Shown piece after piece: positions 30 to 39,132 of a stretch of DNA of 39,405 bases. Source of the stretch: Vulcanimicrobiota bacterium (GTDB lineage Bacteria; Vulcanimicrobiota; JAJTBE01); the NCBI GenBank assembly GCA_021107945.1, contig JAIORV010000060.1:1-39405 (forward strand), in the 5' to 3' direction. The notes below the pieces were generated by a model. It made no database searches and was not told the DNA's origin. It worked only from the letters and a program-made list of their open reading frames with translations. The number at the start of each line of letters is the position of its first letter. The stretch's first letter is position 1. Position numbers and translations under genes: made by a program.

Positions 30-58
30 TTGACAGGAAACATGTGCACCCATATAAT
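30..58 (+). promoter_or_regulatory. Consensus sigma70-type promoter
   Basis: TTGACA at 30-35 and TATAAT at 53-58 are separated by exactly 17 nt, a full match to the bacterial housekeeping consensus. Transcription would start near 65 and run into the TPR operon that begins at 379, giving a leader of about 310 nt. The match is read directly; its use as the operon promoter is inferred. Confidence 0.75.
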
Positions 59-378: not shown

Positions 379-3300
379 ATGCCCGAGGGTGTCCAGGGTC
401 TAATGCGGGAAGCTGAAGCTGCAAATGCCCGAAAAGAATGGGATCAGGCCATCGAGCTTTACCGGCAAGTTTTGGAAGCTGACCCGACAAATGAAGAGTC
501 CTGTTCAAAGCTGGCCGAGTTATATGCCATTCGCGGTTTGATTTCGAATGTAATTGAGCAATATTTCACCTTGATGGATATTCTTGAAGACAAAGCGGAA
601 CATGAATTGGCCGTCGAGGTGGCCCGATGGATAATGAAACTTCAACCCGACAATGACAAAGCCAGGATGAAGACTATACTTATCTATAAGAAAAAAGGCG
701 ATCTGGATGAGGTTGTAAAGCAATCACTTCAACTTGCCAGGTTATATATAGAATTAGGGCAGGGGGATCAATCAATCCTGCTTTTGAAAAACGCCCAGGA
801 AATCGCTCCCGATAACCTGGATATCGGTCTTGAATTGGCAGAAATGTATATCAGCCATGGTCATATTCCGGAGGGTACAACGCAATATAAGAAAATCGCA
901 AATGCTTATTTGAATGCGGGTAATTATGAAAAGGCAGCGGAAGCTTTTCGACGGATGAAAGTTGTGCAACCGGACGATCCTCAGTTAATGTTTACACTGG
1001 GAAATCTTTTTATGAATCTTGGGAAACTTAATGAGGCCGAATCTGAATTCAGAGCGATATTAAGACTTAACTTGAATCATACGGAAGCCCTTATGGCACT
1101 GGGAAATGTATGTCAGAAGAAAGGTCAATTCAGGGATGCGATTCTTGCCTTTAATAAAATATTATCTGTTGACCAGCAGAACGAAATTGCAAAGGAAAAG
1201 TTGGGCGAGCTTTACCAGGCGCAGGGTGCGACCAGCGAGGCCGTGAAGTTCTACCTTCAGGCAGCAAACGCATATCAGTACGAAGAAGCTGTTGACAGGG
1301 CTATCAAACTCTACCAGAGAGTGCTCACAATAGATCCCACAAATCCCACGGCTTGCAGGGAATTGACGAACCTTGGCGCCCCTCTTGTAAATGAGGAACA
1401 GGAGGCTGAGGCTGTTGAAGAATATAGACCGGTCATATCCCCTCTCGAGCTTGATGAAGAAGAGTTAGATATAGCGGGGCCTTCTCTCGAGGAAATGGCA
1501 GGAGCGATCTTACCGCCTTCAACCACCGGAATACCGAAAGCTGCAAAGAAAGCTCAGGTATCGGAAGATGAGGAAGATTTTTTACCCGAAGGAGCTATTG
1601 ACCAGGAAGAAGCTCCTGTTGGAGCAATCCCTTCCCAATTTGCTAATGCGGATTCGGAGGAAGAAGCCGAGTCGTTTATGAGAAATGTCGGGGACGATCT
1701 TGTTTTTTCCGGAAGAAATGTCGAATCCGATATAAAATACAGGGAACGGGAAGTTGAAGAACAAGAAGAGGTTGAAGAAGAAGAGTTTGTTGAAGAAGTC
1801 CCAACAAGAAAAGCTCGCAGACCGAAAAGAAAGGGATTAAGGAAGAAGGAGAAATATGACCAGAAAACTTCCAGAAAAGGATTTGTAAAAAAAGGACTTT
1901 TCCTCAAAGAAGAAGACCAGGATTCATTAAAGCCAGGACTCCTGCGTTCTAAAGGGTCGTCGGGATTAGGAGCAAAGAAGGGCCTTTTCGCTCGAAGATC
2001 GCCAACAAAAGGATTGCTCAAAAGACACGCAAGAGGCGAAGAAGAAGTTACGCCCGAGATGGAAGAAATAAGAGAAGAAGGAATTCCCGAGGAGTATGCC
2101 GAGGAGTATGCCGAGGAATATGCCGAGGAGCCTGCCGAGGAGTATGCCGAGGAATATGCCGAGGAGCCTGTTGAGGAATATGCGGAGGAGTCTGTCGAGG
2201 AATATGCCGAGGAACCTGTCGAGGAGTATGCTCAAGAATATGCCGATGAAATACAGGAAGAGGAAGTCCCTCAATATGAGGAGTCTGTCGCAGAGCCTCA
2301 ACTAATGGAAGAACTGGAGCCGACACCTGTAATTGAAGAGCTTCAACCTGCCGAGGAATACACTCAAGAGGAATACGATCAGTTTGAAGAGATGCCCATT
2401 GAAGAAGAGGTTGGAATTCCTTCCGGGTTAGAGTACCCTGAGGAAGAAGAAGAACCTTCGGGTTTTGACGACGTCTTCGGAGATGTTAATGCCTTTGATT
2501 CGCAACTTCCCCAGGTTGAAGATGACCAGATACCTGAAGAAGTGCCGACTTTTGAAGAGGAAGAAGTTGAAGAAATAGAGGAGCATTTTGCCCCTGCATA
2601 TGAAGAATTCCAACAAAAATCTCTTGTAGGAATAAGGAAAAGGCCGTTGGTTGAGGTAATTATAGTCAGCGAAGCTCCACCGCCTCCTGTAATGGAGCCA
2701 TTGGAGGAAGAAGCACAGGTTATTCCGCGAATGCCGGAAGAACCGGAAATTCCTCAGATTCCCATGGATAAAGAGGAAGTATCTACGGAAGAATTTGCCG
2801 AAATGCCGTTATTGGAATTGCCTGAAGAGATTGTTGCCGAGTATCCTCCCGATGAGGAGATTCCTGAAATGCCATTCTCCCAGGAGGAAGAAGAATATTC
2901 AGTTGAGCAATTCCCTGACGAGTTTAGCGAAGATATGGAAATACCGGACCTTGATTTGAGTGAAACGGAAATTGGCGAGCCTGTCGAAGAGGTAGTACCG
3001 GCTCTTCAGGATGAAATCCCGGAGATGGTTGAGCTCCCTGAATCTTTGAAGCCATTTGAGGAGACTACTCCTGAACTGGTTGAAGAGCCTGTAGTTATGG
3101 CGCCTGCAAGTTTTGAAGATATGTCCCTGCCGGATCTTGGAGAAGGCGGATTTGAACTTCCCGAGTTCTCTGATCTTGGTTTTGAAGCTCCTCCTGATAT
3201 GGGTGGAGATGATTTTACAAGTTCATTACTAAAATTGGCAGAGGAAATTGAACAGATAATTCCTGATGATGAGAGAATTCGAGAAGCCGAGGAAAAGAAA

Positions 3301-5502
3301 AAGCAGGAAGAAGAAGAAAGAAAAGTATGGGAAAAAAAGAAAGAAGAAGCTGAGCTTTCAATCCGACAAGAGTCTGAAGAAGAATTTCAACTACCGCCAA
3401 AGGTAGAAGCGACAAAGGATATTGAATTTCTTGAAATTCCCGAGCAAGTCGAGGAAATATCCCTTGAAGCTCTTCCTTCCCTGCCGGGGGATGTTGATAT
3501 GGGAGAAGTCAAAATAGCTGAATCTGTAGTTATAACTCCCGAGACAGTCTTTTTGCCCCCTCTTGAGTTGGTTCTTGAAACGGAAACCCCTGCGCAGATC
3601 GTTGAGGATATTGAAGCTCCTCCGGAAATCGAAATTGAAGAAGAAGAAGTAATGGGAGAAATTATCGAGGAACCTCCTGCGCCGGAACCGGAAGTTGATA
3701 TTGAAGAAAGAGTGCGTGAGTCGGTTTCTGCCGGGGATCTGGGAATTGCATTTCCACTTTTTGTAGAAGCGATGGAAAAGAGACCTGATAACCTGGAGCT
3801 TCGCAAGGAATATGCGGATTTATGTTACAATTACGGAAGGATGGATCAGGCGCTTGAAAATTATGGGTTCCTGCTTGAGAAAGAAACGAGAGACTTTGAA
3901 ATCAGGAGAAAAATGATAAAAGGACAGCTTCTCTACAATTATACTGAAGATGCTGTTGTATCATTGCTCGAGTATGGAAATGAACTCACCGGCGAAGATA
4001 AAATTGATGAAGCTCAAAGGATTTATCAATATGTTCTTGCTCTGGAAGAAAAAAATTCACATGCCCGGGAATCACTTTCCGAGATATATCTTAATCTGGA
4101 TATGAAAGAACTTGCCCTCTATCATTTGAAGATACTTTCAAACTACCTGGAAGAAGCAAAAAGCATTGAGCAGGCAATAAAAGTACTCAGGAAGATTTTC
4201 AGTCTGACCTCAGATATTAACATTCAGGAACGATTGGCAAGAGTCTATATTGAGAATGACTATAATGATGAAGCAATAAAGGCAATTACGGAACTGGCAA
4301 AGAGATATATGGATCAAAAGCAATATATGAAGGCGGCTACAAATTATGAGAAGATAAAAGAAATGGATCCTCAACACCTTGATGCTCATAAACATTTGAT
4401 CGATCTTTATGAGCAGTTGGGAGACAAGAACCGGAGTTATCAGGAAAAAGTAACCGTAGCCGATCTTGTTATTGCACAAGGTGATATGAAAGAAGCCTGC
4501 CAGCGTCTTGAAGAATGTCTTTCAATTAAGTTCGATGATCAGGAAGTCCGGAGGAAAATTGTAGATATTTATCTTCAGCAGTTCAGCCTTGAAAAGGCGC
4601 TTGAAGAATCCAGGATATTATCAGAGTTCTATCACAAGCAACGTCATTATGATAAAGCGATTCAGCTCTACCTGAAATTGGTAAATGCTGATGCAAAGAA
4701 TCTAACTTTAAGGGATAAATTATCCGAGTTTTATGTGATGTCGGATCAACTGGACAAGGGATTGGAGCAATTGATTCTCGTTGCCAGGGAGTTTGCAGAA
4801 CTTGGAGAATGGGATCAGGCCGTAAAAGCATACAAGAAGGCTCTCACCATAGACAACAAGAATCACGATCTACACTTCAAAATAGGTGAGATATTCCTGA
4901 ATCAAAAGAAAAATGTGGCCGAGGCGCGGTACGAATTTGCCCAGGTGTTTGAGCTTGATCCAACACACCAAAAGGCAATGGAGTATCTTGTAAAGCTATA
5001 TCTCCAGGAAGAGAAGCCGTCAAAGGCAACCTTGGTATTGAACCAGTTGATTGAACTTGATTCATCATATGCTGAGATGAAGAATGAAATCATTGATCAG
5101 TACCTGGCGGATATCAAGAAAGACCCATCCGATTACAAATTACGTTTCTATCTGGGAATAGTCTATAAAGAACTTCGAATGTGGAAACAGGCGATTGAGC
5201 AGTTCCAACAGACCAGGAAAAGCAATGATTATGTACTGGAGTCCCATAGTATGCTGGGAATCTGTTTCGCTCAACAGCCGCCCATGAGAAACCTTGCAAT
5301 TAAAACTCTGGAGAAAGGTCTCCAACTTCCCGGGTTTAAACCAAAAGACTATATCGAACTACACTATCAACTGGCACTGTTGTATGAAAAAACCAGGAAA
5401 TACAAGAAAGCTCTTGATGAATTACAGGCGGTTGTTTCATTAGATTCAAATTACAGGGATGCCGCTGAAATTCTCAGCAAGGTGAAGAAGAAAGCAAAAT
5501 AG
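379..5502 (+). CDS. Giant TPR protein with acidic low-complexity centre
   Basis: This 1707-residue protein starts at ATG 379 after AAAGGTGG. Residues 1 to about 325 are TPR repeats with the usual pattern of Ala/Gly/Tyr helices and DP turns. Residues about 330-1105 are low complexity and dominated by Glu, Pro and Val. A basic island at about 477-553 has recurring KGL motifs, a 52-residue tract of EEYA-like tetrads lies at 571-622, and a charged coiled coil at about 970-992. Residues about 1107-1707 are a second TPR superhelix. No signal peptide or membrane segment is visible, so it should be cytoplasmic. TPRs are known as protein-binding scaffolds, so this is best read as a scaffold with two binding arms on a long charged linker. 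The next gene is a paralog 45 nt downstream. The exact function is unknown. Confidence 0.93.
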   Translation: MPEGVQGLMREAEAANARKEWDQAIELYRQVLEADPTNEESCSKLAELYAIRGLISNVIEQYFTLMDILEDKAEHELAVEVARWIMKLQPDNDKARMKTILIYKKKGDLDEVVKQSLQLARLYIELGQGDQSILLLKNAQEIAPDNLDIGLELAEMYISHGHIPEGTTQYKKIANAYLNAGNYEKAAEAFRRMKVVQPDDPQLMFTLGNLFMNLGKLNEAESEFRAILRLNLNHTEALMALGNVCQKKGQFRDAILAFNKILSVDQQNEIAKEKLGELYQAQGATSEAVKFYLQAANAYQYEEAVDRAIKLYQRVLTIDPTNPTACRELTNLGAPLVNEEQEAEAVEEYRPVISPLELDEEELDIAGPSLEEMAGAILPPSTTGIPKAAKKAQVSEDEEDFLPEGAIDQEEAPVGAIPSQFANADSEEEAESFMRNVGDDLVFSGRNVESDIKYREREVEEQEEVEEEEFVEEVPTRKARRPKRKGLRKKEKYDQKTSRKGFVKKGLFLKEEDQDSLKPGLLRSKGSSGLGAKKGLFARRSPTKGLLKRHARGEEEVTPEMEEIREEGIPEEYAEEYAEEYAEEPAEEYAEEYAEEPVEEYAEESVEEYAEEPVEEYAQEYADEIQEEEVPQYEESVAEPQLMEELEPTPVIEELQPAEEYTQEEYDQFEEMPIEEEVGIPSGLEYPEEEEEPSGFDDVFGDVNAFDSQLPQVEDDQIPEEVPTFEEEEVEEIEEHFAPAYEEFQQKSLVGIRKRPLVEVIIVSEAPPPPVMEPLEEEAQVIPRMPEEPEIPQIPMDKEEVSTEEFAEMPLLELPEEIVAEYPPDEEIPEMPFSQEEEEYSVEQFPDEFSEDMEIPDLDLSETEIGEPVEEVVPALQDEIPEMVELPESLKPFEETTPELVEEPVVMAPASFEDMSLPDLGEGGFELPEFSDLGFEAPPDMGGDDFTSSLLKLAEEIEQIIPDDERIREAEEKKKQEEEERKVWEKKKEEAELSIRQESEEEFQLPPKVEATKDIEFLEIPEQVEEISLEALPSLPGDVDMGEVKIAESVVITPETVFLPPLELVLETETPAQIVEDIEAPPEIEIEEEEVMGEIIEEPPAPEPEVDIEERVRESVSAGDLGIAFPLFVEAMEKRPDNLELRKEYADLCYNYGRMDQALENYGFLLEKETRDFEIRRKMIKGQLLYNYTEDAVVSLLEYGNELTGEDKIDEAQRIYQYVLALEEKNSHARESLSEIYLNLDMKELALYHLKILSNYLEEAKSIEQAIKVLRKIFSLTSDINIQERLARVYIENDYNDEAIKAITELAKRYMDQKQYMKAATNYEKIKEMDPQHLDAHKHLIDLYEQLGDKNRSYQEKVTVADLVIAQGDMKEACQRLEECLSIKFDDQEVRRKIVDIYLQQFSLEKALEESRILSEFYHKQRHYDKAIQLYLKLVNADAKNLTLRDKLSEFYVMSDQLDKGLEQLILVAREFAELGEWDQAVKAYKKALTIDNKNHDLHFKIGEIFLNQKKNVAEARYEFAQVFELDPTHQKAMEYLVKLYLQEEKPSKATLVLNQLIELDSSYAEMKNEIIDQYLADIKKDPSDYKLRFYLGIVYKELRMWKQAIEQFQQTRKSNDYVLESHSMLGICFAQQPPMRNLAIKTLEKGLQLPGFKPKDYIELHYQLALLYEKTRKYKKALDELQAVVSLDSNYRDAAEILSKVKKKAK
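2089..2244 (+). repeat. 12-nt in-frame tandem repeat, 13 units
   Basis: Thirteen units of 12 nt, close to GAGGAGTATGCC, encode EEYA with variants EEPA, EEPV, EESV and QEYA. The unit preserves the frame, so copy-number change would lengthen or shorten the acidic linker of the TPR protein without disrupting it. Confidence 0.9.
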
Positions 5503-5547
5503 AGTATTAAAACTATTGCATAAAAGAAATTTGGAGGACAAATTTCA

Positions 5548-8500
5548 ATGTCAAACGGATTTGAAGATTATATAGTTCAGGCAAGACAGCAAGCCGAGGC
5601 GGGACAACTTGACGAGGCAATAATGTCTTATCGCGGGGCGCTTGAAGAAGATCCCACCAATGAGGATATCCGCAGGGAGATTATCAATCTCACCCTGAGG
5701 AAAGGCGATTTCGAATCGACAATTGTAGAGTATTTTGATTGGGCGGAAGCCTGTCAGGTACAGGGCGCAATTGACGATGCCATTCGTATTTACCAGGAGA
5801 TCCTTGGGTTGGATACACTTCTGAAGAAGAAGATATTCATGATGGATCAAAAGGTGGCCCACGAAACAATCGCACAGATCAAGGAAACCATTCAGGCCGC
5901 CAGTGGAGCGATTTTCTTTAATCTGGGTTACCTTTACCTGGAAAAAGGCGCTTTGGATGAAGCAATTTCCTGCCTTCAAAAGAGTCTGGAATTCAATCCT
6001 TCAGATGCAAAAACTCATACCCTTCTCGGGCAGGTTTTTATGCAAAAAGGACTTGACAGTGAGGCGACAGGGGAATTCCAGGAAGTGGTAAGACTTGCTC
6101 CCGAGGAAGCGGCATATGCTTATGAAATGCTGGGAGAAATATTTGTCCGCAAGGGAAAACCTCCACAAAATACTATTGTCTGGTTCAGGAACGCGGGAGA
6201 CCTTTATTTGCGCCATGAGCAGGTTGAGGAAGCGATACGGGCATATGAGAGAATACTGAGTCTTGAGCCAAGGAATAAAGATGTGCTGACTCGTCTTGGA
6301 GAGATCTATGCAAAACAGGACGAGAAGGACAAGGCGCTGGAGATATACAGGGAATTGGCCGAAATTTACTCCAACGAGGGACTCCTTGATAAGGTTGTTG
6401 TAATATATGAAAAATTGGTTGAATGGGATCCGGAAAATGAAGAGGCCAGAGAGAAAATAATTGATATATACAATAAAATCCTGACAATAGATCCCTCAAA
6501 CCTGACGGCGCGGCATAAACTTATTGGCAATCTTCTCAGGAAGGGATCCGCGGAAGAAGCTATACCTCAATTCCTGGCGCTTTCAAAGACATACCTAGAG
6601 AAAGGGATGAAGAAAGAAGCGTTTGCTGTATGCCGCAAGTTGCTGGAATTAAACCCCCGTGAAGCTAATGCGCATGAGTTAATCGCAGATATTATTTTTG
6701 GGCAGGGCAAAAAAGAAGAAGCCCTGAAGGAGTATCTGTATGCTTTGAAGCTTTATCAGGACGGGGGCGATGAAGATGCCTCCACAAAACTCAACGAAAG
6801 GCTCCTGGAAATGTACCCGGGAACAAAGCAGGTTGCATTTCATATGGCGCTTACATATAAAAAACGGCAGGATTACGATCTCGCCCTTGAAGAGTTCAAG
6901 AAAATTATGGCCGATGAGCCTGCAAATGTGACTATACTACAACATATAATGGATATTTACGAGGCCAAGGAAGAACTTGACAAGGTTATAGAATATGCAT
7001 ACAAGATTGTAAATCTCGACAATACACGCACAGATATGCAGGATAAGATTATATCAATATACCAAAAGCAGGGCAATACACAAAAAATTATTACAATTTA
7101 TGAGTATATGCTCAAGGTAGATCCATCAAGGTCTGATATAAGGAACAAAATACTTGAAATATACGAGCAAGAAGGCAGGCAGGATAAAATTATTGAGATG
7201 TATCAGAATATCCTGGAGCAAGAACCGGATCGGATTAATATCAGGCAAAAACTGATACAATATTATGCAACCGAGGGACTTATTGAAAAAATGCTCGGAG
7301 AATCATCAATCCTGGCGGATGTATTCCTCAAAAATGATGATCTGGCTAAAGCCGAGAGCCTGTATAAGAATGTTCTTGCTTTCATACCGGGCGATATAGG
7401 TATTCGTAGTAAACTCTATAACATATACGAGCAAAAGGGAGAAGTTGAAAAAGTTCAGGATGAACTGATGGTACTTGCAAGTATTAGTTACAGCGCCAAT
7501 GATATCGAGGGATCAGTGAAGAACTGTCAGAAACTGTTGGAATATGTGCCGAATGATATTAATATTAAAAATCGTATTGCATGTATGTCCGCAGACTCGG
7601 GCAACACTGTTGAAGCTGTTAATCAGTATAGAGATGTGGCAGAGATATACCTGGATAAAAAAATGACGGAACCCGCAAAAGAGATGATCGGGAATATCCT
7701 TGAAATTGATTCCGAGAATATCGAGTACCGTGAAAAACTGATAAAAATTCTAAAAGAGCAGTTGAAAGTTGAAGAAGCCATACAGCACTATAAAATTCTT
7801 ATCTCACATTTTCTCCGATTCGACCAGAACAATGATGCAATAACCGGGGCAAGAGATGCTATAGCCCTATTGCCGATGGATCTTGACCTCAGGAAAGAAA
7901 TTGCCGAGTTGTTCTTATCGGGGAGAGATTTGGATAATGCACGTGTTTTTGCCGATGAGTTGATTGACATTTTCCTTTCACGTAGCGAATATGAGGAAGT
8001 TAACAAAGTGTATTCTCGTCTCTCCCTGGTCTATCAAGAAAAGGGTGATATGGAAGTCTATTATGAGATGAGAGAGAATATTGCCAGGATTCTCGAAAGA
8101 CAGACCAAGTATGATGAGGCCATTAAAGAGTATCTCGGAATCCTTGAAGGGAATATGATGGAGTCCAGGAAAGGTGAAGCTGAAAAACTATTCCCGGTCT
8201 TAATCGGACTGTATTTTAAGGGGGAAAGACCAGAGCAGGCGGTCGAGAATTTTCAGGCTCTCTCCGACAAGCTTTACAAATTCGGTAAACTGAATGAATC
8301 GCTGCTTTCCCTTGAACATATAGAAGAAATACAACAACGTATTGAAGATTATGACAAAGCGCTTGAAACTCTCAAATTGATTATCAAATATCATGAAGAG
8401 AAAAATGATATTGAAAGCATTATTAAAGCTTATAAAAGGTGTATTGATATCCATTTGAGACTCAAGGATACTGCTATGGCCATTAATGAGATGTTTAGCA

Positions 8501-9225
8501 TCATACAGCGGTATCTTGAAATGGGGAATCTTGACTCTGCAATAGAGCAATTCAATGAAATTGAAAGTTTTGAGTCCGACCGTCCCGATATAATTGCCAG
8601 GATGGCGGAAACATTATTTGAATATGAGAAGTTCGAAAAGGCAAAAGAATTATATGAGAAAGTGCTTGAACTCGATGCCGAGAACTTTGATGCTATGGCA
8701 AGAATTGCAATCGTACTTGCAAAAGCCGGAAATCTACAGGATGCCGTTGTTTATACCAAGAAGATATTCTCAAAGGGACTGGTTGCAGAGGTTATCGATG
8801 AATATATGAAAAGCTCGGAAGTTGATCCTGATGATGCACAGATTCATATAAATATGGGATTGTTCTATCAGGAAATGGGTTTTGTTGAAGAAGCTATTCA
8901 TGAATTTCAATTGGCGGCAAGGGATAAAGATCGACTATTGGAAGCTTATGACCTTCTTGCAAAGTGTTTTAAACAGGAAGGCTTTATTGATCTTGCCATA
9001 AGGCAATTGGAAAGGGCTCTTGAAAAACCCGGATATCCGGAGGAGGATTATCTTGCAATAAGATACAATCTCGGAGAGACATTGCTTGAGAATAATCAGT
9101 TGCAGGAAGCCCTCTCAGCGTTTTATGAATGTTATATGGTTGATATTAATTACAAGGATATATCAGAGAAAATCGCAATGATCAACGAAAAGCTCTCCGC
9201 AGCAGAAGAGGCTGGAGTTGAATAA
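5548..9225 (+). CDS. Giant all-TPR protein
   Basis: This 1225-residue protein starts at ATG 5548 after a TTGGAGGA site and lies 45 nt after the previous TPR gene. It is TPR-like almost end to end, with many 34-residue units carrying a Tyr/Ala-rich first helix and a DP or NP turn. No signal peptide, membrane segment or enzymatic domain is visible. Its N-terminus resembles that of the upstream gene (alternating Ala-Glu helices, then LEEDPTNE against LEADPTNE), so the two look like tandem paralogs that diverged when the first gained its acidic insert. A scaffold role in the same complex is inferred from co-direction and spacing. Confidence 0.92.
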   Translation: MSNGFEDYIVQARQQAEAGQLDEAIMSYRGALEEDPTNEDIRREIINLTLRKGDFESTIVEYFDWAEACQVQGAIDDAIRIYQEILGLDTLLKKKIFMMDQKVAHETIAQIKETIQAASGAIFFNLGYLYLEKGALDEAISCLQKSLEFNPSDAKTHTLLGQVFMQKGLDSEATGEFQEVVRLAPEEAAYAYEMLGEIFVRKGKPPQNTIVWFRNAGDLYLRHEQVEEAIRAYERILSLEPRNKDVLTRLGEIYAKQDEKDKALEIYRELAEIYSNEGLLDKVVVIYEKLVEWDPENEEAREKIIDIYNKILTIDPSNLTARHKLIGNLLRKGSAEEAIPQFLALSKTYLEKGMKKEAFAVCRKLLELNPREANAHELIADIIFGQGKKEEALKEYLYALKLYQDGGDEDASTKLNERLLEMYPGTKQVAFHMALTYKKRQDYDLALEEFKKIMADEPANVTILQHIMDIYEAKEELDKVIEYAYKIVNLDNTRTDMQDKIISIYQKQGNTQKIITIYEYMLKVDPSRSDIRNKILEIYEQEGRQDKIIEMYQNILEQEPDRINIRQKLIQYYATEGLIEKMLGESSILADVFLKNDDLAKAESLYKNVLAFIPGDIGIRSKLYNIYEQKGEVEKVQDELMVLASISYSANDIEGSVKNCQKLLEYVPNDINIKNRIACMSADSGNTVEAVNQYRDVAEIYLDKKMTEPAKEMIGNILEIDSENIEYREKLIKILKEQLKVEEAIQHYKILISHFLRFDQNNDAITGARDAIALLPMDLDLRKEIAELFLSGRDLDNARVFADELIDIFLSRSEYEEVNKVYSRLSLVYQEKGDMEVYYEMRENIARILERQTKYDEAIKEYLGILEGNMMESRKGEAEKLFPVLIGLYFKGERPEQAVENFQALSDKLYKFGKLNESLLSLEHIEEIQQRIEDYDKALETLKLIIKYHEEKNDIESIIKAYKRCIDIHLRLKDTAMAINEMFSIIQRYLEMGNLDSAIEQFNEIESFESDRPDIIARMAETLFEYEKFEKAKELYEKVLELDAENFDAMARIAIVLAKAGNLQDAVVYTKKIFSKGLVAEVIDEYMKSSEVDPDDAQIHINMGLFYQEMGFVEEAIHEFQLAARDKDRLLEAYDLLAKCFKQEGFIDLAIRQLERALEKPGYPEEDYLAIRYNLGETLLENNQLQEALSAFYECYMVDINYKDISEKIAMINEKLSAAEEAGVE

Positions 9226-9268
9226 CCTGTATCTTTATATATGCTTTTCGAAACGGGAGAATTATTAA

Positions 9269-10540
9269 ATGAAAAAAAGGTTAATGCTATTGATAATAAT
9301 GGTGATTTCACTTTGTGGAATTGCCAATGCACAGATAATGCCGGGATTAAGTCAATACCATCAATTATTTGGCTATGCTCTTGCAGGACTTACTGTTCTT
9401 CTTGTAGGTCTCTTGATATGGGAAATACAATTTCAAATTTCCCGGAGAAGGGGATCCGACGAAGATACAATGGTGAATATTATAGGGGTAAGTGAAGAAG
9501 GAGACGGCAAGGATGATGAAGATCCCATCAAGGCCCTTTTAAAAGCACAGGCGAAAAGCTCTCTCTCTCAGGAGGATGAAGAAGGAGTTTTACCCCCGTT
9601 TTTACAGGATGATGAAAAAACCTCACAATCTCATCCCGGCACACCACCGGGGGCTGTTCCTGTTGCCCAGGCAGGAGATGGGGGCGATCCTTTTAAGATG
9701 CTTTTAATGAAATCAGCGCATAAGGAAGAAGAAAAGATCGAGGAGAAGCCTTCTGTTCAGTCAACTCCAATTCCAACCCCCATTCCGGAGCAAAAGCCGG
9801 CCCAACCTCATTTTCAGCGAGCGGAGGATGATCCTTTCAAGGAGTTGTTGAAATCCCAGGAGAAAAAAATCGTCCCTCCAAAACCGGCAGGCAAAAAACC
9901 CGGAGTTAAAGAGGTCACACCCTCTGCCGGCCCGCCCAGGAAGAAGTTGGCATTTACTTCACCTGAGCCTGGAAGTTCAAAGAAGAAGAAGATAGCATTT
10001 AGCATTCCTTCACAGAAGTCTGCAGGGGGAGGTCTGTTTTCCAGGATTAGCGGCAGTGATGAGCAACAAACTGATGAACCTCAAAAGGGAGTAATAAAAC
10101 CTCCCGGTCCTTCAAAATCCCCTGTTTCTCCTGAAACTCTTGAAAGGGCGATAAATATTGATTCAGGTCAAAAAGATCGAAATGTAAAAATTCCAGATAG
10201 TAATAAGGTCATTTTAAAGAAGCCTGGAGTGAAATCTGTTCAAAGACATGAGCCGCCCCGCCTGAAGATAAGAAAGCGACTTGAGTTTGACATCGGGGGC
10301 AAGGCGACAGCTAAGGCAAAAGACGACCAGGCTCCTGATACTCAAAAGATATCGAAAAAAGGAAAAAGGTTGACACTTGATATACAGGCAAAGCGTGGTG
10401 TAAGGACTTCAAAATCGCGTGTCGCCCAAAAGAGTCCGGTCAAAACCGGCCCGGGTAATGTAAAAATTAAGCCCAAGCCTCCCGGAAAAGGAAACCTGGG
10501 AGCGCCGGAGACGAAAAAGTTTGAGCAGAAAAAAACTTGA
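9269..10540 (+). CDS. Bitopic membrane protein with basic, motif-repeating tail
   Basis: This 423-residue protein starts at ATG 9269 after CGGGAG. Residues 1-21 look like a cleavable signal peptide (KKR, hydrophobic core, ANA cleavage site). A second hydrophobic segment at 34-52 is followed by RRR, so the long C-terminal part should face the cytoplasm. That tail is Lys/Pro-rich and looks disordered. It carries three copies of a DPxKxLLxxx motif (85-94, 140-149, 188-197), two copies of KKPGVK (209-214, 317-322), and four basic-hydrophobic motifs (RKKLAF 224, KKKIAF 239, RKRLEF 335, GKRLTL 365). I recognise no family. An adaptor tethering the TPR and Roadblock partners to the inner membrane is inferred from these motifs and the operon position. 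Confidence 0.87.
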   Translation: MKKRLMLLIIMVISLCGIANAQIMPGLSQYHQLFGYALAGLTVLLVGLLIWEIQFQISRRRGSDEDTMVNIIGVSEEGDGKDDEDPIKALLKAQAKSSLSQEDEEGVLPPFLQDDEKTSQSHPGTPPGAVPVAQAGDGGDPFKMLLMKSAHKEEEKIEEKPSVQSTPIPTPIPEQKPAQPHFQRAEDDPFKELLKSQEKKIVPPKPAGKKPGVKEVTPSAGPPRKKLAFTSPEPGSSKKKKIAFSIPSQKSAGGGLFSRISGSDEQQTDEPQKGVIKPPGPSKSPVSPETLERAINIDSGQKDRNVKIPDSNKVILKKPGVKSVQRHEPPRLKIRKRLEFDIGGKATAKAKDDQAPDTQKISKKGKRLTLDIQAKRGVRTSKSRVAQKSPVKTGPGNVKIKPKPPGKGNLGAPETKKFEQKKT

Positions 10541-10582
10541 AGCAGTGTTATATGTTGAAAGCTATAGGAGGAGGAGATATTA

Positions 10583-11470
10583 GTGGTTCTTCCCAAGGGT
10601 AATCCCTTGATTGAAAAAGTACATTTGCCCTTTCCCGATGTCAATGTTATTATTAACAACCTTGAACAGCAGGGTTTTACAGGTTTTGTTAAGTTGGAAT
10701 TGTATAAGGTTGACGGTATTATCTTTTTTGTGCATGGCACAATGGTAAGGGCTCTTGAAATGGACGAATCAAGCAACAAGGTTCTCCCACTTGCGAGAAT
10801 CCTTAACAGGTTGAAAAAGAAAGAAGTGGATACTTCCACGTATGTTCTGTCTCCTCGTATCGTGGGGGTTATGTCCATGATTTTTGCGTTTCAACCTCTT
10901 TATCTGGCTTATGAAGTAAAGCAAAAAGAGTTGAAAAAAGTTATGACTACCCTTGAAGCCGATAGTTATACCGGAATAATTGAAGTGAAATCAAGAGATG
11001 GCGTTTCATATCTTCTGATTGATAAAGGTGAGATTTTAACTGACAGCTTCGCGAAAGAATATGGACAAATTGTATGTGGAACTGAAGCGGTAAGTAAGTT
11101 CCTGAATTTCATCTCCAAGAAGGGCGCGGTTATTAATATCTTTGCGGAAAAGCAAGATGAAATCGATAATAAAAAGAGGTCGATCGAGGAAGAATTGGAA
11201 AAGATCAAACAGTTAATAGTCAAGGAAGAGAGAGGCTTTTTCAAGGCCGGCGATACTTTCTGGGTAGATGAATACATTGTTCAGGAATGGGGAATAAGGA
11301 ATCTAAGGAGTTTACAGTTGGAATTGGAGACACCGGAAGGTGTTGTTCATATAGTAAAAGGGGCCGTGAGCAAGAAACTAGGAGGATATATCTCCGCAAC
11401 CGGCGGACTGCTAAAAAAATTAGACCTGAAAGAGGGAGATCTGGTAAGTATAAAACCGACCAGGTCATAA
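10583..11470 (+). CDS. Protein with two similar N-terminal alpha/beta domains, DUF4388-like pattern
   Basis: This 295-residue protein starts at GTG 10583 after AGGAGGAG. The two N-terminal halves share one pattern: a hydrophobic helix, TGxxxL/V, a strand with D-G and then FxxGxMVRA or IDKGEILTDS. This recalls the DUF4388/PATAN-type domains found with bacterial two-component and gliding proteins, but the match is by pattern only. A helical linker rich in Glu/Lys (about residues 193-215) leads to a C-terminal beta-rich part ending LKEGDLVSIKP, like a small barrel. There are no membrane segments. It sits between the membrane adaptor and the Roadblock gene, fitting a cytoplasmic signalling role. 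Confidence 0.83.
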   Translation: MVLPKGNPLIEKVHLPFPDVNVIINNLEQQGFTGFVKLELYKVDGIIFFVHGTMVRALEMDESSNKVLPLARILNRLKKKEVDTSTYVLSPRIVGVMSMIFAFQPLYLAYEVKQKELKKVMTTLEADSYTGIIEVKSRDGVSYLLIDKGEILTDSFAKEYGQIVCGTEAVSKFLNFISKKGAVINIFAEKQDEIDNKKRSIEEELEKIKQLIVKEERGFFKAGDTFWVDEYIVQEWGIRNLRSLQLELETPEGVVHIVKGAVSKKLGGYISATGGLLKKLDLKEGDLVSIKPTRS

Positions 11471-11550
11471 CATTTTTGGTTTTTCTTTTTTACCAATATC
11501 AGTTTGTTAAGACTCAGGCTAAAATATCCCGAAAGGAAGACGCTTAAAAC

Positions 11551-11907
11551 ATGGCGGAATTGAATAAAATACTTGAGAATCTTTGTACCGTTGAGGGAGT
11601 TCAGGGTGCGTTTTTAATCGACGAAGAGGGAAATATGGTTGAAAGTGTAATGGATCAACCGATAGATATTGACGGCATTACCAACCTGGCTTATCGTTGT
11701 GTTACTTCAGGTAGAATGATCGCCAATTCGATAGGAAAAAAAGCTCTGAAGCAATCCTATGTGGAGTTTAAGAATTCCAGCCTGACACTCGATCTTCTCA
11801 AGAATGATGCCATATTGGCATTACTTGCAACATCGGGATCGAATCTTGGCAGGATCAGACTTGAAATAAGGAAGAATAAGAAATCTGTCGAGAATTTACT
11901 CTCCTGA
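11551..11907 (+). CDS. Roadblock/LC7 domain protein
   Basis: This 118-residue protein starts at ATG 11551 after AAAGGAAG. It is one Roadblock/LC7 domain: an N-terminal helix, GVQGAFLIDEEGNMV as the first hairpin, a long central helix, then LDLL, AILALLA and a C-terminal helix. Family members form homodimers and commonly act as regulators or scaffolds for Ras-like small GTPases such as MglA, or cap larger complexes. No GTPase gene is present in this window, so the partner is unknown. A second Roadblock domain is fused to the TPR protein at 14172-15740, so the two could heterodimerise (inference). Confidence 0.9.
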   Translation: MAELNKILENLCTVEGVQGAFLIDEEGNMVESVMDQPIDIDGITNLAYRCVTSGRMIANSIGKKALKQSYVEFKNSSLTLDLLKNDAILALLATSGSNLGRIRLEIRKNKKSVENLLS

Positions 11908-11982
11908 ACACTTAAAATAAACATTCTATGACTATAGTGAAATTAATTCATACAATACCCGGCAATTGAAGGGGGTAAAAAT

Positions 11983-12357
11983 TTGAGCAAAAAGAAAGTG
12001 ATGATTGTTGATGATGAGGCACACATTGTCGAGCTTGTTAGGGTTTGTCTTGAAGATTCCAATTATGATATTATAGAAGCATATGACGGTCAAGAGGCGG
12101 TTAACAAGGCACAGGAAGATCATCCAGACCTTATTTTATTGGATATAATGCTTCCAAATATGGATGGATATGAAGTCTGTAAAATACTAAAAGATTCTGA
12201 TGAAACGAAAGAGATTCCCATAGTAATGTTAACCGCAAAGGGACAGGAAGTTGACAAGGTAAAGGGATTTCAAGCAGGAGCGGATGCTTATATGACAAAG
12301 CCTTTCAGTCCACTCAGATTGCTTACGGAGCTTGAAGAAAAGCTATCGGTATCTTGA
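11983..12357 (+). CDS. CheY-like single-domain response regulator
   Basis: This 124-residue protein starts at TTG 11983 after a strong GAAGGGGGT site. It has the full receiver set: acidic pair D10/D11, phospho-acceptor D54 in LILLDIMLP, switch T84 and K106 in TKPF. No output domain follows, so it must signal by protein contact, as CheY or PilG/DivK-type regulators do. The histidine kinase 184 nt downstream is the obvious candidate partner. It lies directly after the Roadblock gene. Confidence 0.95.
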   Translation: MSKKKVMIVDDEAHIVELVRVCLEDSNYDIIEAYDGQEAVNKAQEDHPDLILLDIMLPNMDGYEVCKILKDSDETKEIPIVMLTAKGQEVDKVKGFQAGADAYMTKPFSPLRLLTELEEKLSVS

Positions 12358-12541
12358 TAAAGCCTTTTTAATTGATGTTATGGTAATTATATTGATAGCC
12401 TGACGGAAGTCTATCGATAGTCAAATGGAAATATATATTTGTGATTTGAATCCATCAGTTTGAGTATGATGTTGGTTTTGGATGCCTCTTTTAAGTTGAA
12501 TATTGTAGGTAATCAGGAAATTTAGTTAGAAGGAATAGTGA

Positions 12542-14155
12542 GTGAATCAAGTAGGTAATCCGGAAAAAGACCATCCCGCTTATACTCAAGAAAAGGGCTT
12601 GTTGGCTCTATATGAAATAGTAAAAGCTGTCAATTCAACTCTCGACCTTGATGAGGTCTTGAATCTGATTATCAAGGAAACCACGAAACTATTTCATGCC
12701 GATGCGGGATCGGTCATGTTGTTAAATGAAAATTCGGTTCTAACCATAAAATCCGCACAGGGTCTCCCCGGTGAGATTATCAAAAACACCAGGGTGCGTC
12801 TTGGCGAGGGCATTGCAGGCTGGGTTGCCAAAACAGGTGAAACTCTGCTGCTCGATGGAAAAGTAACCGATCCTCGTTTCAAAAACCTTGTAGATCGTAA
12901 AGAGGAAATACTATCTTCCATTTGCACCCCTCTAAAGTGCAAGGGCAAAATAATCGGCGTGTTGATGCTGAGGAGGACGCACTTTAAGAGTTATACGGAA
13001 GAACAACGAAACTTGTTTTCCCTGATAGCCGATCAAGCTGCAATAGCTATTGAAAATGCGTCTCTTTACGAGGCTGAAAAGAAAAGAAGTTATGAGTTAA
13101 GAAGACTTAACGAAATTTTACGTCTGGAAAAATTGAAGATTGAGACTATTCTCTCAAGTATGGCGGACGGTGTAGTTGTAACAACCCCCGGAGGAGAGAT
13201 TATTCACATAAACCGCTCCACGGAGAGAATGCTCAATGTAAACGGAAAGGATATTGTCGGGAAGCATTTTGATCATCTCTTTACGGAAGAATGCTGTTTC
13301 GACGAAATAAAATATACCGTTATTGAAACGGACGGGAGATACAAGTCGGACTTCTCACGTAAGACTGATGACGGTGAGATGCATTTTAGATTAATCGGCA
13401 CTGTCATGAAAGGAAAGGGAGATAAGCCAGACGGACTTGTTATGGTGATTCAGAATATCACCGAGATGAAAAGGATTGACAAAATGAAATCGGAATTCGT
13501 CTCGATGGTAAGTCATGAACTTAGAACTCCACTCACATCTGTAGTGGGATTCGCAGAATTGATGATGAACAGGGAATTCAATCCGGAACGAAGAAAACGT
13601 TATCTTAACATTATTATCAAGGACTCGGAAAGGTTAATGAGGCTTATTGATGATTTGCTCGATCTCTCCAAGTTGGAAGCCGGGAAATTTTATTTCAAGC
13701 CGACACCTTTTAAAATAGATGAAATTATTTCCCAGGTGATGGAGAGTTTAAAGGGACAGGCCCCAGAGCATAATTTGCTTCTTGAAATTACCGAAGAAAT
13801 TCCGATTTTATCCCTGGATAGGGATATGTTTACTAACCTGATTTCAAATCTTCTATCCAATGCAGTTAAATATTCCCCCGATAGTGGGGATATCAAGGTA
13901 ACATTACAAAGTAATGAAAAAGAGGTATCGGTTTGTGTATCGGATCACGGAATCGGGATAGAAGCTGAAAAGATTCCCAGGATATTTGATAAGTTTTACC
14001 GGGTTGATTCTTCTCTGAATCGTAAAACCGGTGGAACAGGACTTGGACTTGCCACGGTAAAATATATTGTAGAAGAATTTGGAGGAAAGATATGGGTGGA
14101 GAGCGAATTGGGAAAAGGTAGTTCTTTTATCTTCACCCTACCTCTTGAGGATTGA
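12542..14155 (+). CDS. GAF-PAS sensor histidine kinase
   Basis: This 537-residue protein starts at GTG 12542 after AGAAGGA. A GAF domain spans about 24-180, a PAS domain about 197-310, then HisKA with the phosphorylated H325 in SHELRTPL, and HATPase_c with the N box at N440 and the G boxes DHGIGIE and GGTGLGL. There is no signal peptide or membrane helix, so it should sense a cytoplasmic ligand or partner. The CheY-like gene just upstream is the likely phosphoryl acceptor. The 184-nt gap before it is the longest inside the operon and holds an imperfect inverted repeat near 12393-12419 (ATTGATAG, CTATCGAT), so it may have its own promoter. Confidence 0.95.
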   Translation: MNQVGNPEKDHPAYTQEKGLLALYEIVKAVNSTLDLDEVLNLIIKETTKLFHADAGSVMLLNENSVLTIKSAQGLPGEIIKNTRVRLGEGIAGWVAKTGETLLLDGKVTDPRFKNLVDRKEEILSSICTPLKCKGKIIGVLMLRRTHFKSYTEEQRNLFSLIADQAAIAIENASLYEAEKKRSYELRRLNEILRLEKLKIETILSSMADGVVVTTPGGEIIHINRSTERMLNVNGKDIVGKHFDHLFTEECCFDEIKYTVIETDGRYKSDFSRKTDDGEMHFRLIGTVMKGKGDKPDGLVMVIQNITEMKRIDKMKSEFVSMVSHELRTPLTSVVGFAELMMNREFNPERRKRYLNIIIKDSERLMRLIDDLLDLSKLEAGKFYFKPTPFKIDEIISQVMESLKGQAPEHNLLLEITEEIPILSLDRDMFTNLISNLLSNAVKYSPDSGDIKVTLQSNEKEVSVCVSDHGIGIEAEKIPRIFDKFYRVDSSLNRKTGGTGLGLATVKYIVEEFGGKIWVESELGKGSSFIFTLPLED

Positions 14156-14174
14156 AAAGGAGGTAACCACTATT
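14155..14174 (+). promoter_or_regulatory. Strong Shine-Dalgarno preceding an ATT start
   Basis: AAAAGGAGGT at 14155-14164 is near-perfect anti-16S complementarity and begins at the last base of the kinase stop codon. Seven nt later (14172-14174) is ATT, in frame with the downstream TPR-Roadblock gene. No ATG, GTG or TTG lies at a usable distance. The nearest in-frame alternative is TTG 14145, which is upstream of this site and has no Shine-Dalgarno of its own. Confidence 0.65.
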
Positions 14175-15740
14175 TCCGGCATAGAAAATTCTGTCGAAAG
14201 ACAATTACAAACTTCACTTGATCAACAAATTCTAAAATTAAAGAAGATCCTGGATGAAAATCCCGGTGATCTTTCTGTGCTTATGGCATATGCCGAGGCG
14301 AACCTGAGGAAGGGAAATCGACTCGAAGCCATGAAAGCTTACCAGAAAGTTGTTAAAATCAAGCCTGAAGTGCCTGAGGTACGTATTGCCCTTACGAAAA
14401 TTTATATTTCAATGAAACATTACGAGGATGCATACAATGAAGTAGTAATGATTTTCGATATAGATGAAAAGAATATTGAAGGGCACATACTTCTGAAACA
14501 ATTACTCAGACTCATTGAACCCCCCGGCGACTTAAATGAGAAACTTGAAGCTCATACTGATTTCAAAGCTCCTCCGAAAAAAATAAAAGTTCTCCAGGCT
14601 CTTTACGACCTGGAAAAACGTAAATATTCCAGGTTGATTAATGATTTCAAGAGACAACTCGAAGAGGATGACGGCGACCCGGTTGTCATGTATCAGAGGA
14701 ATAAAGCGCAAGAAAGACTGGCAACGGCTAATCAGGCTCTTGAAGACCTGGAAAGTATGATGGGTGAGCCTGAAGAGGAAGAAGTACCGGTTGAAATCGA
14801 GGAAGTTGAAGTAGTAGAGGAAGTTCCGGTAGTTGAGGCAATTATGCCTGACGGAGAAGAAATACCTTCAGCAGAAGAAATGAAAGTAGTTGAGGAGTCG
14901 CCCGCAGAAAAAACTGGAGTTGAAACCGAGGAGGTTACGGAGGAAACTGCGGAAGAAGCGACTGAGTCATCCAGGGCAAGAGATACCGGGGATTTAGAAG
15001 AACAAGTAGTTGATACTGCCAAACTTGTTGAAATGGCTGAAGAACAGGTTGAAGAAGTGGAAGTTATCGAGCCTGTTGCTGAGGAAGTACCTGAAGCCGA
15101 GGCTGATATTGTTGAACCTGAAGAAAAGGCCATAGAGGAATTCCAGGTTGAAGATATGGATCTGGGTGAGCCAATCGGTGAGATTTCAGCTATTCCCCTC
15201 GAGGAACTTGCCGGCATTGAAGCTATTCCTATTGAAGAAATGATTGATGAAACGGTTCCTGAATTGGCAGAGTCCCCTGAAGCTGAAGAAAAAATTGTGC
15301 AAGAGGAAGAAATAGAAGAAAAACCTATCCTTTCTCAAGAGAGATTAGCTTATTATAATGAAATAATGGACGAGTTGGATATAGTTTTACAAGCTCTCAA
15401 CCGGACAAGGGGTGTGGTTTCATCTCTTGTTCTTGATAACACCGGGCATATATTACATCTACTCAGTATCGAGAACTTCAATTCTGATGAGCTTGGCTCG
15501 CAGGTACTTCAAGGAGTAAGTCCCCTTATAAAATGGGGAACCAATACCGACGAAGAGGGGAGAGAACTTTTATATTGGGTGCTTGAATTCAAGAAAGGAT
15601 TAATGGTTCTACAGCCTCTGACTTCTGATGTTTATCTTATCGTGCTGGGTAAGAGAGGGGCCAATTTTGGCGCAGTACGATATAGCATAGAAAAGAATAC
15701 AAGCAAATTACTGAGCGCGCTTGCGAATATGCCAGGATAG
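14172..15740 (+). CDS. TPR - acidic linker - Roadblock fusion protein
   Basis: The product is about 522 residues if it starts at ATT 14172. Residues 1 to about 190 form TPR helices ending in a charged coil. Residues about 196-387 are an acidic Glu/Val/Pro linker much like the one in the first TPR gene of the operon. Residues about 389-522 are a Roadblock-like domain (LDNTGHILHLLSIENF hairpin, long helix, then FKKGLMVLQPL and VYLIVLG strands). A longer frame runs back to ATG 14079 inside the kinase gene, but that start has no ribosome site and would add a non-TPR N-terminus. The fusion links the two signature modules of this operon, TPR scaffold and Roadblock, in one chain. It is expected to be cytoplasmic. 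Confidence 0.88.
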   Translation: MSGIENSVERQLQTSLDQQILKLKKILDENPGDLSVLMAYAEANLRKGNRLEAMKAYQKVVKIKPEVPEVRIALTKIYISMKHYEDAYNEVVMIFDIDEKNIEGHILLKQLLRLIEPPGDLNEKLEAHTDFKAPPKKIKVLQALYDLEKRKYSRLINDFKRQLEEDDGDPVVMYQRNKAQERLATANQALEDLESMMGEPEEEEVPVEIEEVEVVEEVPVVEAIMPDGEEIPSAEEMKVVEESPAEKTGVETEEVTEETAEEATESSRARDTGDLEEQVVDTAKLVEMAEEQVEEVEVIEPVAEEVPEAEADIVEPEEKAIEEFQVEDMDLGEPIGEISAIPLEELAGIEAIPIEEMIDETVPELAESPEAEEKIVQEEEIEEKPILSQERLAYYNEIMDELDIVLQALNRTRGVVSSLVLDNTGHILHLLSIENFNSDELGSQVLQGVSPLIKWGTNTDEEGRELLYWVLEFKKGLMVLQPLTSDVYLIVLGKRGANFGAVRYSIEKNTSKLLSALANMPG

Positions 15741-15784: not shown

Positions 15785-15806
15785 AGGCTGGTCTCCTGAC
15801 CAGCCT
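15785..15806. repeat. REP-like hairpin, AGGCTGGTC stem
   Basis: A perfect 9-bp stem, AGGCTGGTC and GACCAGCCT, closes a TCCT loop in the 170-nt gap after the TPR-Roadblock gene. The same stem with loop GGGA recurs at 32413-32434 and, with one mismatch, at 39111-39132. No U-tract follows, so it is a dispersed repeat and not a clear intrinsic terminator. Nothing else is visible in 15741-15910. Confidence 0.75.
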
Positions 15807-19464: not shown

Positions 19465-19905
19465 CTATATCTTTCTCCAGACGCCATATTTCATTGCCCA
19501 CCATTTATATTCCTGAGCAAAGGTGTGGTCTTTGTGAAAATCATCCTGATCAATAATCTCCTTCTTCAGGCGATCCACATGGGCGGAGCTAATGGAGAAA
19601 GCTCCGAACCCTCTGTTCCACTGAAACCTGTGCTCAGTAAGGCCTTTTTCATTTATCCATCTTGAAGACTCTCCTTTTAATGCCTGTATAACATTGGAGA
19701 TTGACATTTTTGCGGGAAGAGATATGAGACAGTGTACGTGCTCCGGTTGAATATTGATGCTCAGTATCGGTACATCTATCTTCTCGGAATGCGCCAACAG
19801 ATGCTCACGAAGAGCATCTGTCAGGTTTCCTGTGAGTTCCTTTTTAAGGTTGTGAGTTGTCCATATCAAGTGGAGCCAGATTCTTACACAAGGATGTGTT
19901 GTCAT
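19465..19905 (-). CDS. Y1/IS200-like transposase, expected catalytic Tyr replaced
   Basis: This 146-residue protein starts at ATG 19905 after GGGGGG; an in-frame ATG at 19971 has no ribosome site. It has the Y1 transposase signature: the HxH metal motif H56-V-H58 in QPEHVHCLIS, the FQWNRGFGAFSIS strand and the C-terminal helix region. In related proteins this helix reads like KKYIxNQ or CKYILNQ, with the nucleophilic Tyr. Here it reads LKKEIIDQ, so E116 (codon GAG) occupies that place. The frame is otherwise intact. Either it is catalytically dead, or another Tyr (in QEYKWW or MKYG) has taken over, or the alignment is shifted. Confidence 0.85.
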   Translation of the reverse strand: MTTHPCVRIWLHLIWTTHNLKKELTGNLTDALREHLLAHSEKIDVPILSINIQPEHVHCLISLPAKMSISNVIQALKGESSRWINEKGLTEHRFQWNRGFGAFSISSAHVDRLKKEIIDQDDFHKDHTFAQEYKWWAMKYGVWRKI

Positions 19906-19934
19906 GTTGTTTCCCCCCTTATGTTTCGTTGTTA

Positions 19935-20014
19935 AGTCGCTGAAGCGACTCGAGCTTGTGATGATAACCATCGGTGCGCGGGGACATCCCGACCTGAAGC
20001 TGCTTCAGCCGCTT
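19935..20014. repeat. Two REP-like hairpins upstream of the transposase
   Basis: AGTCGC/GCGACT with loop TGAA lies at 19935-19950. A second, AAGCTGC/GCCGCTT with loop TTCA and one T-C mismatch, lies at 19997-20014. They match the family found at 19366-19457 on the other side of the gene. Confidence 0.75.
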
Positions 20015-24765: not shown

Positions 24766-24829
24766 AAAAAACTGACTTCATTAATTATTAACAGCTTAAA
24801 TGCAAAATAATAAAAAGGTTGGAAAAGAT

Positions 24830-26146: not shown

Positions 26147-26314
26147 CGGAGAACGGATAACGGAGAACGGAGAACGGATGACGGAGGTCGAAGGAGAGGT
26201 TATCGAAAAACCTCAAAATCTCGGCTATTTCCCGTTTCCCTTTTCTCATTTCCATTTCCCACAGAGGACACAGAGATATCAATGTTTTTTCTCCGGTTAT
26301 TCTCTGCGGTGAAT
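26144..26314. repeat. GGAGAACGG microrepeat plus CACAGAG-type arms
   Basis: Immediately after the paralog B stop lies a run of GGATAACGGAGAACGG-type units (26144-26190). CACAGAGGACACAGAG follows at 26258-26275 and the opposite arm TTCTCTGCGGTGAAT at 26300-26314. The second arm ends about 10 nt before the Shine-Dalgarno of paralog C. Confidence 0.75.
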
Positions 26315-26338
26315 AGTTGCAAAAGGAGATATATAATC

Positions 26339-32366: not shown

Positions 32367-32467
32367 GTATTTATTCAGACCCATACTGTAGCCTCGATTT
32401 TATACCATTTTCAGGCTGGTCGGGAGACCAGCCTCCACCCAAATCCTGGGGTGGTCTGAATAAATAC
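32367..32467. mobile_element. MITE-like element with 15-bp terminal inverted repeats
   Basis: GTATTTATTCAGACC (32367-32381) and its exact complement GGTCTGAATAAATAC (32453-32467) bound a 101-bp unit with no gene. Inside are a trimmed GTAGGAG-type motif (32386-32397), the AGGCTGGTC hairpin (32413-32434) and a CCACCC/GGGTGG stem. The left end recurs at 34901-34915 and, degenerate, at 38605-38618. The size and lack of coding capacity fit a non-autonomous miniature element. No clear target duplication is seen. Confidence 0.8.
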
Positions 32468-39072: not shown

Positions 39073-39132
39073 GTAGGAGAGGCTTCCAGCCTCGATTTCA
39101 TACCATTCCCAGGCTGGTCGGGAGACCAACCT
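39073..39132. repeat. Composite REP: GTAGGAG hairpin plus AGGCTGGTC hairpin
   Basis: GTAGGA, stem GAGGCT/AGCCTC around TCC and CGATTTCATACCATTCCC lead to AGGCTGGTC (39111-39119), GGGA and GACCAACCT with one mismatch. The same order occurs inside the MITE-like element at 32367-32467, so this is an internal fragment of that element. Confidence 0.8.

Follow-up and report, generated by a model that had tools for sequence, protein, structure and literature searches.

A conserved cluster of Roadblock and TPR proteins as a candidate membrane-associated scaffold in the UBP9/Xenobia lineage

Gene content and conservation of the P1 to P9 locus

The 39,405-nucleotide stretch of Vulcanimicrobiota DNA analyzed here (the window; contig C54 of a 5.56-Mb source genome) harbors a cluster of nine genes, designated P1 to P9, which includes two giant TPR proteins, a predicted membrane anchor, two Roadblock proteins, and a putative O-antigen ligase. 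An earlier note on this DNA had described the first eight genes as a co-directional set; an open reading frame (ORF) check placed all eight on one strand at the coordinates given there, and Pfam agreed with the TPRs claimed for the first two products and with the Roadblock, CheY-like, and GAF-PAS kinase assignments. The conserved cluster, however, reaches a ninth gene, P9, which the note had left out. The features of the locus are as follows.

30..58, + strand: perfect match to a sigma-70-type promoter, TTGACA-17-TATAAT (12 of 12 consensus positions)
59-378: leader, about 310 nt from the promoter match to the P1 start
379..5502, + strand: P1, giant TPR protein consisting of a TPR arm, a long acidic disordered linker, and a second TPR arm, with no transmembrane segment (Pfam TPRs)
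5548..9225, + strand: P2, giant TPR protein with no transmembrane segment (Pfam TPRs)
9269..10540, + strand: P3, predicted bitopic membrane anchor with a signal peptide, one transmembrane segment ending in WE, and a disordered cytoplasmic tail
9521..9541, + strand: P3 short motif 1, DPIKALL (residues 85-91)
9686..9706, + strand: P3 short motif 2, DPFKMLL (residues 140-146)
9830..9850, + strand: P3 short motif 3, DPFKELL (residues 188-194)
10583..11470, + strand: P4, two related DUF4388/PATAN-like domains and a C-terminal double-psi beta-barrel (DPBB)
11551..11907, + strand: P5, stand-alone Roadblock protein of class A (Pfam Robl_LC7, 2.4e-7), with an invariant GRxRxE near the C terminus
11983..12357, + strand: P6, CheY-like receiver (Pfam); accessory
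12542..14155, + strand: P7, GAF-PAS-HisKA-HATPase sensor kinase (Pfam); accessory
14163..15740, + strand: P8, TPRs, an acidic linker, and a Roadblock domain of class B; start moved from TTG 14079
15911..18097, + strand: P9, Wzy_C (O-antigen ligase family) membrane protein with C-terminal TPRs; ninth cluster member

The start of P8 is very likely GTG 14163, which is located 7 nt past the P7 stop codon behind AAAAGGAGG, the earlier start at TTG 14079 overlapping P7. No family was matched by an Rfam search of the leader. A scan of the gaps from P1 to P9 returned no terminator-like site on the + strand, and such a site was detected past P9, at position 18507. The view of the earlier note that no named system possesses this gene set is borne out, in that none of the models of Pfam, NCBIfam, or PADLOC has a name for it, a defense-system search returned generic TPR matches only, and no publication on it was found among open-access papers, of which a single one mentions DUF4388.

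Relatives were sought in 38 genomes of the same phylum (the own genome and 37 others), of which 23 encode P5 homologues and 21 encode P4 homologues. The one-strand order 1-2-[P3 position]-4-5-(6-7)-8-9 was observed by tblastn in nearly all fetched loci, within the limits set by contig ends, with P1 being the first gene of the cluster in relatives; in genome G003, the P4 gene sits on a separate contig. A lack of synteny in relatives had been named in the earlier note as the first finding that would refute its proposal, but the order 1-2-3-4-5-(6-7)-8 was indeed kept in about 20 genomes, which represent 11 families within a single phylum and argue that the arrangement is not due to chance. On the evidence of this synteny, P1, P2, P3, P4, P5, and P8 constitute one ancient unit. 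A P4 profile matched 27 of 149 phylum genomes, all belonging to families f1, f3-5, f7, f8, f10-13, and f15; the listed genomes of f14 and f16 gave no match to this profile, nor was a P4 homologue present in f9. The named records with P4 comprise UBP9_UBA1432, CPR1, and several uncultured or mislabelled bins. Because the wide alignment is too diverse for a contig scan, these records were searched with nine closer sequences and one peptide pattern, and more distant relatives may exist in other phyla. UBP9 is taken by us to represent the class Xenobia of Eremiobacterota. The class Xenobia is listed in PMC9758169. No relative was found among viral contigs, and no neighbors beyond P9 are conserved phylum-wide, capsule/exopolysaccharide-type genes (Bac_transf, DegT, and CapD-type) following P9 in three genomes only (G003, G013, and G017).

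Roadblock classes, membrane anchor, and associated proteins

The Roadblock domain of P8 scores 20.3 bits against Pfam Robl_LC7, below the 23-bit cut-off, and the domain was nevertheless confirmed by a P5-seeded profile, hhalign, a profile search of the PDB, and a structure predicted with AlphaFold. This model presents a canonical Roadblock fold whose best Foldseek match is MglB (TM about 0.83), with LAMTOR2/p14 also being matched. The P5 and P8 domain profiles are related (hhalign 99.4%), and both match the solved Roadblock structures of MglB, CvnB5, and dynein Roadblock; LAMTOR2 is matched by the P8 profile at 2e-4, and LAMTOR3 weakly by that of P5. Residues G100, R101, R103, and E105 of P5 are invariant in the alignment, and P5 scores 25.2 bits against the MglB equivalog model, for which the cut-off is 200. 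Each covered locus encodes one P5-type and one P8-type domain, and when 43 domains were placed on a tree, a single branch (support 100/100) separated the 22 P5 from the 21 P8 sequences, a division into two classes that the earlier note had missed. Because there is one of each per locus and the two clades are clean, P5 and P8 are believed to form an obligate Roadblock heterodimer.

A Ras-like GTPase partner was sought in the 38 genomes with the Pfam profiles Arf (PF00025) and Roc (PF08477) and with one MglA query. The Arf and Roc matches were mostly low scoring and located in ORFs of about 850-1000 or 460 amino acids (aa), sizes which we take to be typical of IF-2 and Der. An MglA-type GTPase was not found by profiles or MglA query in 37 of the 38 genomes (the own genome and 36 of the 37 relatives), in line with the earlier note, which had seen no Ras-like GTPase at the locus. 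The sole exception is G034, in which an MglA-like gene, whose product carries a C-terminal hydrophobic extension, is followed by a Roadblock gene on contig C186 (L070:228-1754). This detection indicates that the search works; used as a query in turn, the G034 MglA retrieved no further MglA in the 38 genomes beyond two marginal matches inside large frames. The pair is either a contaminant or a separate system, and since its GC content (0.68) resembles that of the rest of G034, contamination is not demonstrated. The own genome encodes a Roco-type protein in a 1272-aa frame with a 122-bit Roc domain (G000:C11:46698-47039), and a profile search of the 37 relatives returned no comparable Roc match. 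Within the sensitivity of such profiles, the absence of a GTPase partner is well supported. Roadblock proteins that lack an adjoining MglA are common. In a published survey, 749 MglB homologues were recorded in 238 genomes, 200 of which also encode MglA and 38 of which do not, and 328 of the 749 Roadblock proteins were without an adjoining MglA (PMC4316618).

A second Roadblock module was observed in the same lineage, in the own genome (G000:C20; L092:9478-14352) and at L065-L071, with no GTPase nearby. It is composed of a protein of approximately 800 aa with one or more C-terminal Roadblock domains, a Roadblock protein of 115 aa, and a kinase of the hybrid or GAF type, and it adjoins a giant TPR protein in several relatives, the own genome not being among them.

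The earlier description of P3 as a bitopic protein agrees with its predicted signal peptide and single transmembrane segment, but the conserved motif DP(F/W)KxLL had been missed. Wherever the stretch from P2 to P4 is fully covered in a relative, it codes for a protein that is predicted to be bitopic, from which overall sequence similarity is gone and whose constant features are one transmembrane segment, usually ending in WE, and short DP(F/W)KxLL motifs; P3 has no Pfam match. The pattern DP[FWYI][KRG]x[LIF] occurs 22 times in 13 of 20 P3 tails, against an expectation of 0.07 and a maximum of 2 in shuffled sequences, and variants such as GGWADLLQRV and AWEALLK are present in families f11 and f15. 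The f8 proteins comprise only 52-57 aa, namely, one transmembrane segment and one terminal DP(F/Y)G motif of the DPFGLLN type, a reduction suggesting that the anchor and the motif are what is essential. A scan of the own genome for the exact DPFKxLL codon pattern gave four sites, two of them within P3, one in a frame of 15 codons, and one in a 158-codon frame of nongenic appearance, and it yielded no convincing further motif-bearing client. The P1 linker has a basic GLF/GLL repeat, which was considered as a second motif and was ruled out, as it is not conserved. The earlier note had also suggested that the acidic linkers of the scaffold proteins complement a basic P3 tail; acidic linkers are common in P1 and P8 of relatives, but this suggestion fails because the net charge of the P3 tail is not conserved, ranging from -37 to +21.

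P4, formerly described as two DUF4388-like halves, matches Pfam DUF4388 at 5e-6, and its first two-thirds were confirmed to contain two DUF4388 domains in tandem that are related to each other (hhalign 94%, E 9e-8); a third, C-terminal domain had been missed. In an AlphaFold model built from 21 sequences (pLDDT 91.5), Foldseek matches over about 87 columns are to double-psi beta-barrels (the VCP N-domain and designed DPBBs), and this predicted barrel is placed at residues 205-293 from secondary structure. DUF4388 is, in our understanding, the PATAN domain. Cyanobacterial PATAN proteins are thought to join response regulators to the pilus motor (PMC7690835). In two f11 genomes, G016 and G032, a diverged second P4 directly follows a stand-alone TPR protein that matches P1 residues 11-339 (L062:8606-10550 and L063:8465-10365), and this adjacency indicates that the P1 N-terminal arm and P4 were duplicated as a pair. 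Additional diverged P4 copies were noted in G144-G146.

Of 21 loci, 8 lack the kinase P7 and 11 lack the receiver P6, with P1 to P5 and P8 staying in place; on the P4 tree, at least two changes for the kinase and at least three for the receiver would be needed. Judging from this distribution, P6 and P7 are accessory. The phosphorelay control envisaged in the earlier note is weakened because both are often absent while the remainder of the cluster stays.

P9 matches Wzy_C with 61.2 bits (cut-off, 31.7) and has 13 predicted transmembrane segments; the positive-inside rule predicts an N-in orientation, placing its TPRs in the periplasm. A Wzy_C gene is located on the module contig in 15 of the 16 non-f8 genomes whose contig is long enough. 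The exception is G022, in which the gene immediately after P8 encodes a C39-type peptidase; in its relative G024, this peptidase gene lies beyond P9. No Wzy_C was detected anywhere in the four f8 genomes, which retain the core, so P9 appears to be its usual partner rather than the reason for its existence, and the situation in f8 and G022 implies that surface glycan cannot be the sole output.

Elsewhere in the window, a palindrome, GGCTGGTC-NNNN-GACCAGCC, is present at positions 15786-15805, 32414-32433, and 39112-39131; it resembles a REP-like dispersed element, with 76 sites genome-wide at one mismatch or fewer and none for the reversed control. An IS200-type transposase (19468-19971) is a weaker match to the REP-associated kind. 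Three paralogous PQQ-type beta-propeller-like proteins, encoded at 21952-23379 (- strand), 24800-26143 (+ strand), and 26282-27790 (+ strand), share N-terminal SFKNISDSFK-like and C-terminal VxIGGVxL-like tags.

Proposed assembly and alternative explanations

We propose, with about even confidence, that the cluster specifies a membrane-associated scaffold of the UBP9/Xenobia lineage, in which a Roadblock pair would operate without a Ras-like GTPase and whose output in most lineages would be glycan related. The proposal builds on the gene order and its distribution, on the lack of a recognizable GTPase, on the division of the Roadblock domains into two classes, on the conservation of the anchor and its motif, on the domains of P4, and on the linkage of P9. 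The core unit is formed by P1, P2, P3, P4, P5, and P8, with P5 (class A) pairing with P8 (class B, on a TPR arm) in the putative obligate heterodimer. The predicted topology of P3 would allow it to tether the complex to the inner face of the cytoplasmic membrane, where its DP(F/W)KxLL motifs may dock into a module protein, be it the Roadblock pair, P4, or a TPR groove. The N-terminal TPR arm of P1 is probably the partner of P4, as the separate duplication of exactly that pair suggests, while P6 and P7, if present, may supply a two-component signal. The usual output, to judge from linkage, would be cell-surface glycan assembly through the ligase/polymerase P9. This mode of working is likened to that of the eukaryotic Ragulator, where an extended membrane-anchored protein is arranged around Roadblock heterodimers, the cluster not being a member of that family. 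A more specific formulation, which we advance tentatively and regard as somewhat doubtful, is that of a GTPase-free, Ragulator-like bacterial scaffold, ancestral to one large lineage, in which the obligate Roadblock heterodimer, with one half carried on a TPR arm, would be gathered at the membrane by the motif-bearing P3 and by P4 as a PATAN-DPBB adaptor.

Several points weigh against the proposed scaffold. Every physical contact, the direction of signaling, and the output are inferred from the comparisons above; divergence in the linker of P1 and in the tail of P3 is too rapid for these regions to be aligned; and families f4, f5, f10, f11, and f15 carry motif variants only (DPFKTRV, for example, in addition to those cited) or none. 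Family f8 can dispense with P9, the G022 cluster lacks it, and the predicted periplasmic location of the P9 TPRs would preclude direct contact with P1 or P2. Furthermore, the absence of a GTPase was established with Pfam profiles and a single MglA query, and its role could be filled by a GTPase that has diverged strongly or by the Roco protein on G000:C11.

Among the alternatives, a module for the control of polarity or of type IV pili or gliding, in which the Roadblock pair, the TPR giants, and the PATAN-like P4 would site a surface motility machine in the manner of MglB, SgmX, and PATAN, with the GTPase replaced or very diverged, is unlikely but survives best. Myxococcus MglA recruits the 14-TPR protein SgmX for pilus formation (PMC11580455), the pilus motor of cyanobacteria is a target of PATAN response regulators (PMC7690835), and in G006 a secretin gene is located upstream of P1. 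The score of P2 against the SgmX model is 115 bits, but this lies far under the cut-off of 1800 and reflects generic TPR similarity; moreover, 37 of 38 genomes yielded no MglA, the cluster has no pilus gene as a conserved neighbor phylum-wide, and the linkage of P9 indicates glycans.

Should P5 and P8 instead regulate a distant small GTPase or Roco protein encoded elsewhere, as MglB dimers do in their capacity as GTPase-activating proteins for MglA (PMC11016934, PMC4316618), the Roco-type protein of the own genome would be a candidate. We consider this quite improbable, as the module-bearing relatives have no comparable Roc match, theirs being weak and in ORFs with the sizes assigned above to IF-2 and Der, and as P5 reaches 25 bits where the MglB equivalog model demands 200. 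About as improbable is a conventional two-component output for surface polysaccharide, with kinase and receiver as the core and the TPR and Roadblock proteins as passive adaptors: the loss of kinase and receiver from many loci in which P1 to P5 and P8 persist, and the retention of the core in f8 without any O-antigen ligase, are difficult to reconcile with it, even though both signaling domains are intact in the window, P9 is linked, and capsule genes lie downstream in three genomes. That separate housekeeping TPR, signaling, and glycan genes merely share one long operon is very improbable, for although TPR and two-component genes are common and contacts between the products are only proposed, the order is kept in 11 families, the Roadblock classes are matched, and P3 is held in place despite near-total sequence loss.

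To our knowledge, Roadblock domains are interpreted almost everywhere as regulators of Ras-like GTPases. Here, one bacterial lineage maintains a matched Roadblock pair in a fixed cluster, with no candidate GTPase found in nearly all genomes. If the proposed scaffold assembles as envisaged, bacterial Roadblock dimers could serve as stand-alone platforms, and GTPase-independent Roadblock roles would become testable with a few expressible proteins. The cluster also offers a first handle on how surface-glycan synthesis may be organized in these uncultured cells.

Comparison with known systems

The MglAB system of Myxococcus and Thermus shares with the cluster a Roadblock-fold regulator, MglB being the best match of P8, and a TPR effector, SgmX, within its network, PATAN proteins having been listed as possible SgmX partners (PMC11580455). 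Unlike MglAB, the cluster is without MglA, its P5 falls far below the MglB equivalog cut-off, it possesses two Roadblock classes, one of which is TPR fused, as well as a membrane anchor, and its gene order is not mglBA. The actinobacterial conservon (CvnA-D) likewise has a histidine kinase in the vicinity of a Roadblock protein, together with a protein whose function is unknown; the cluster, however, is without the GTPase (CvnD), a CvnC-type protein (DUF742) was not found by Pfam among its nine products, its kinase is optional and of the GAF-PAS type, and its TPR giants and P3 have no conservon counterpart. As defining features of both systems were looked for and were not found, the cluster was filed under neither, although it may yet operate as a Roadblock platform. 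Orphan MglB homologues resemble it in having no adjoining MglA (PMC4316618), but differ from its fixed nine-gene context and matched pair, which are maintained across many families of one lineage. Similarly, members of the Wzy_C/O-antigen ligase family with C-terminal TPRs have the domain layout of P9, which is set apart by its syntenic tie to a cytoplasmic Roadblock/TPR module.

In Ragulator/LAMTOR, a membrane-anchored extended protein and Roadblock heterodimers act as a scaffold (PMC5680233), and the cluster is comparable in its two Roadblock classes and in the membrane-anchored, extended nature predicted for P3. P3 differs in being bitopic, nonlipidated, and not homologous to p18/LAMTOR1, and the cluster differs in having TPR giants and no Rag GTPases and in that its assembly is only proposed. 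As a module the cluster is undescribed, yet every recognizable domain within it is already known.

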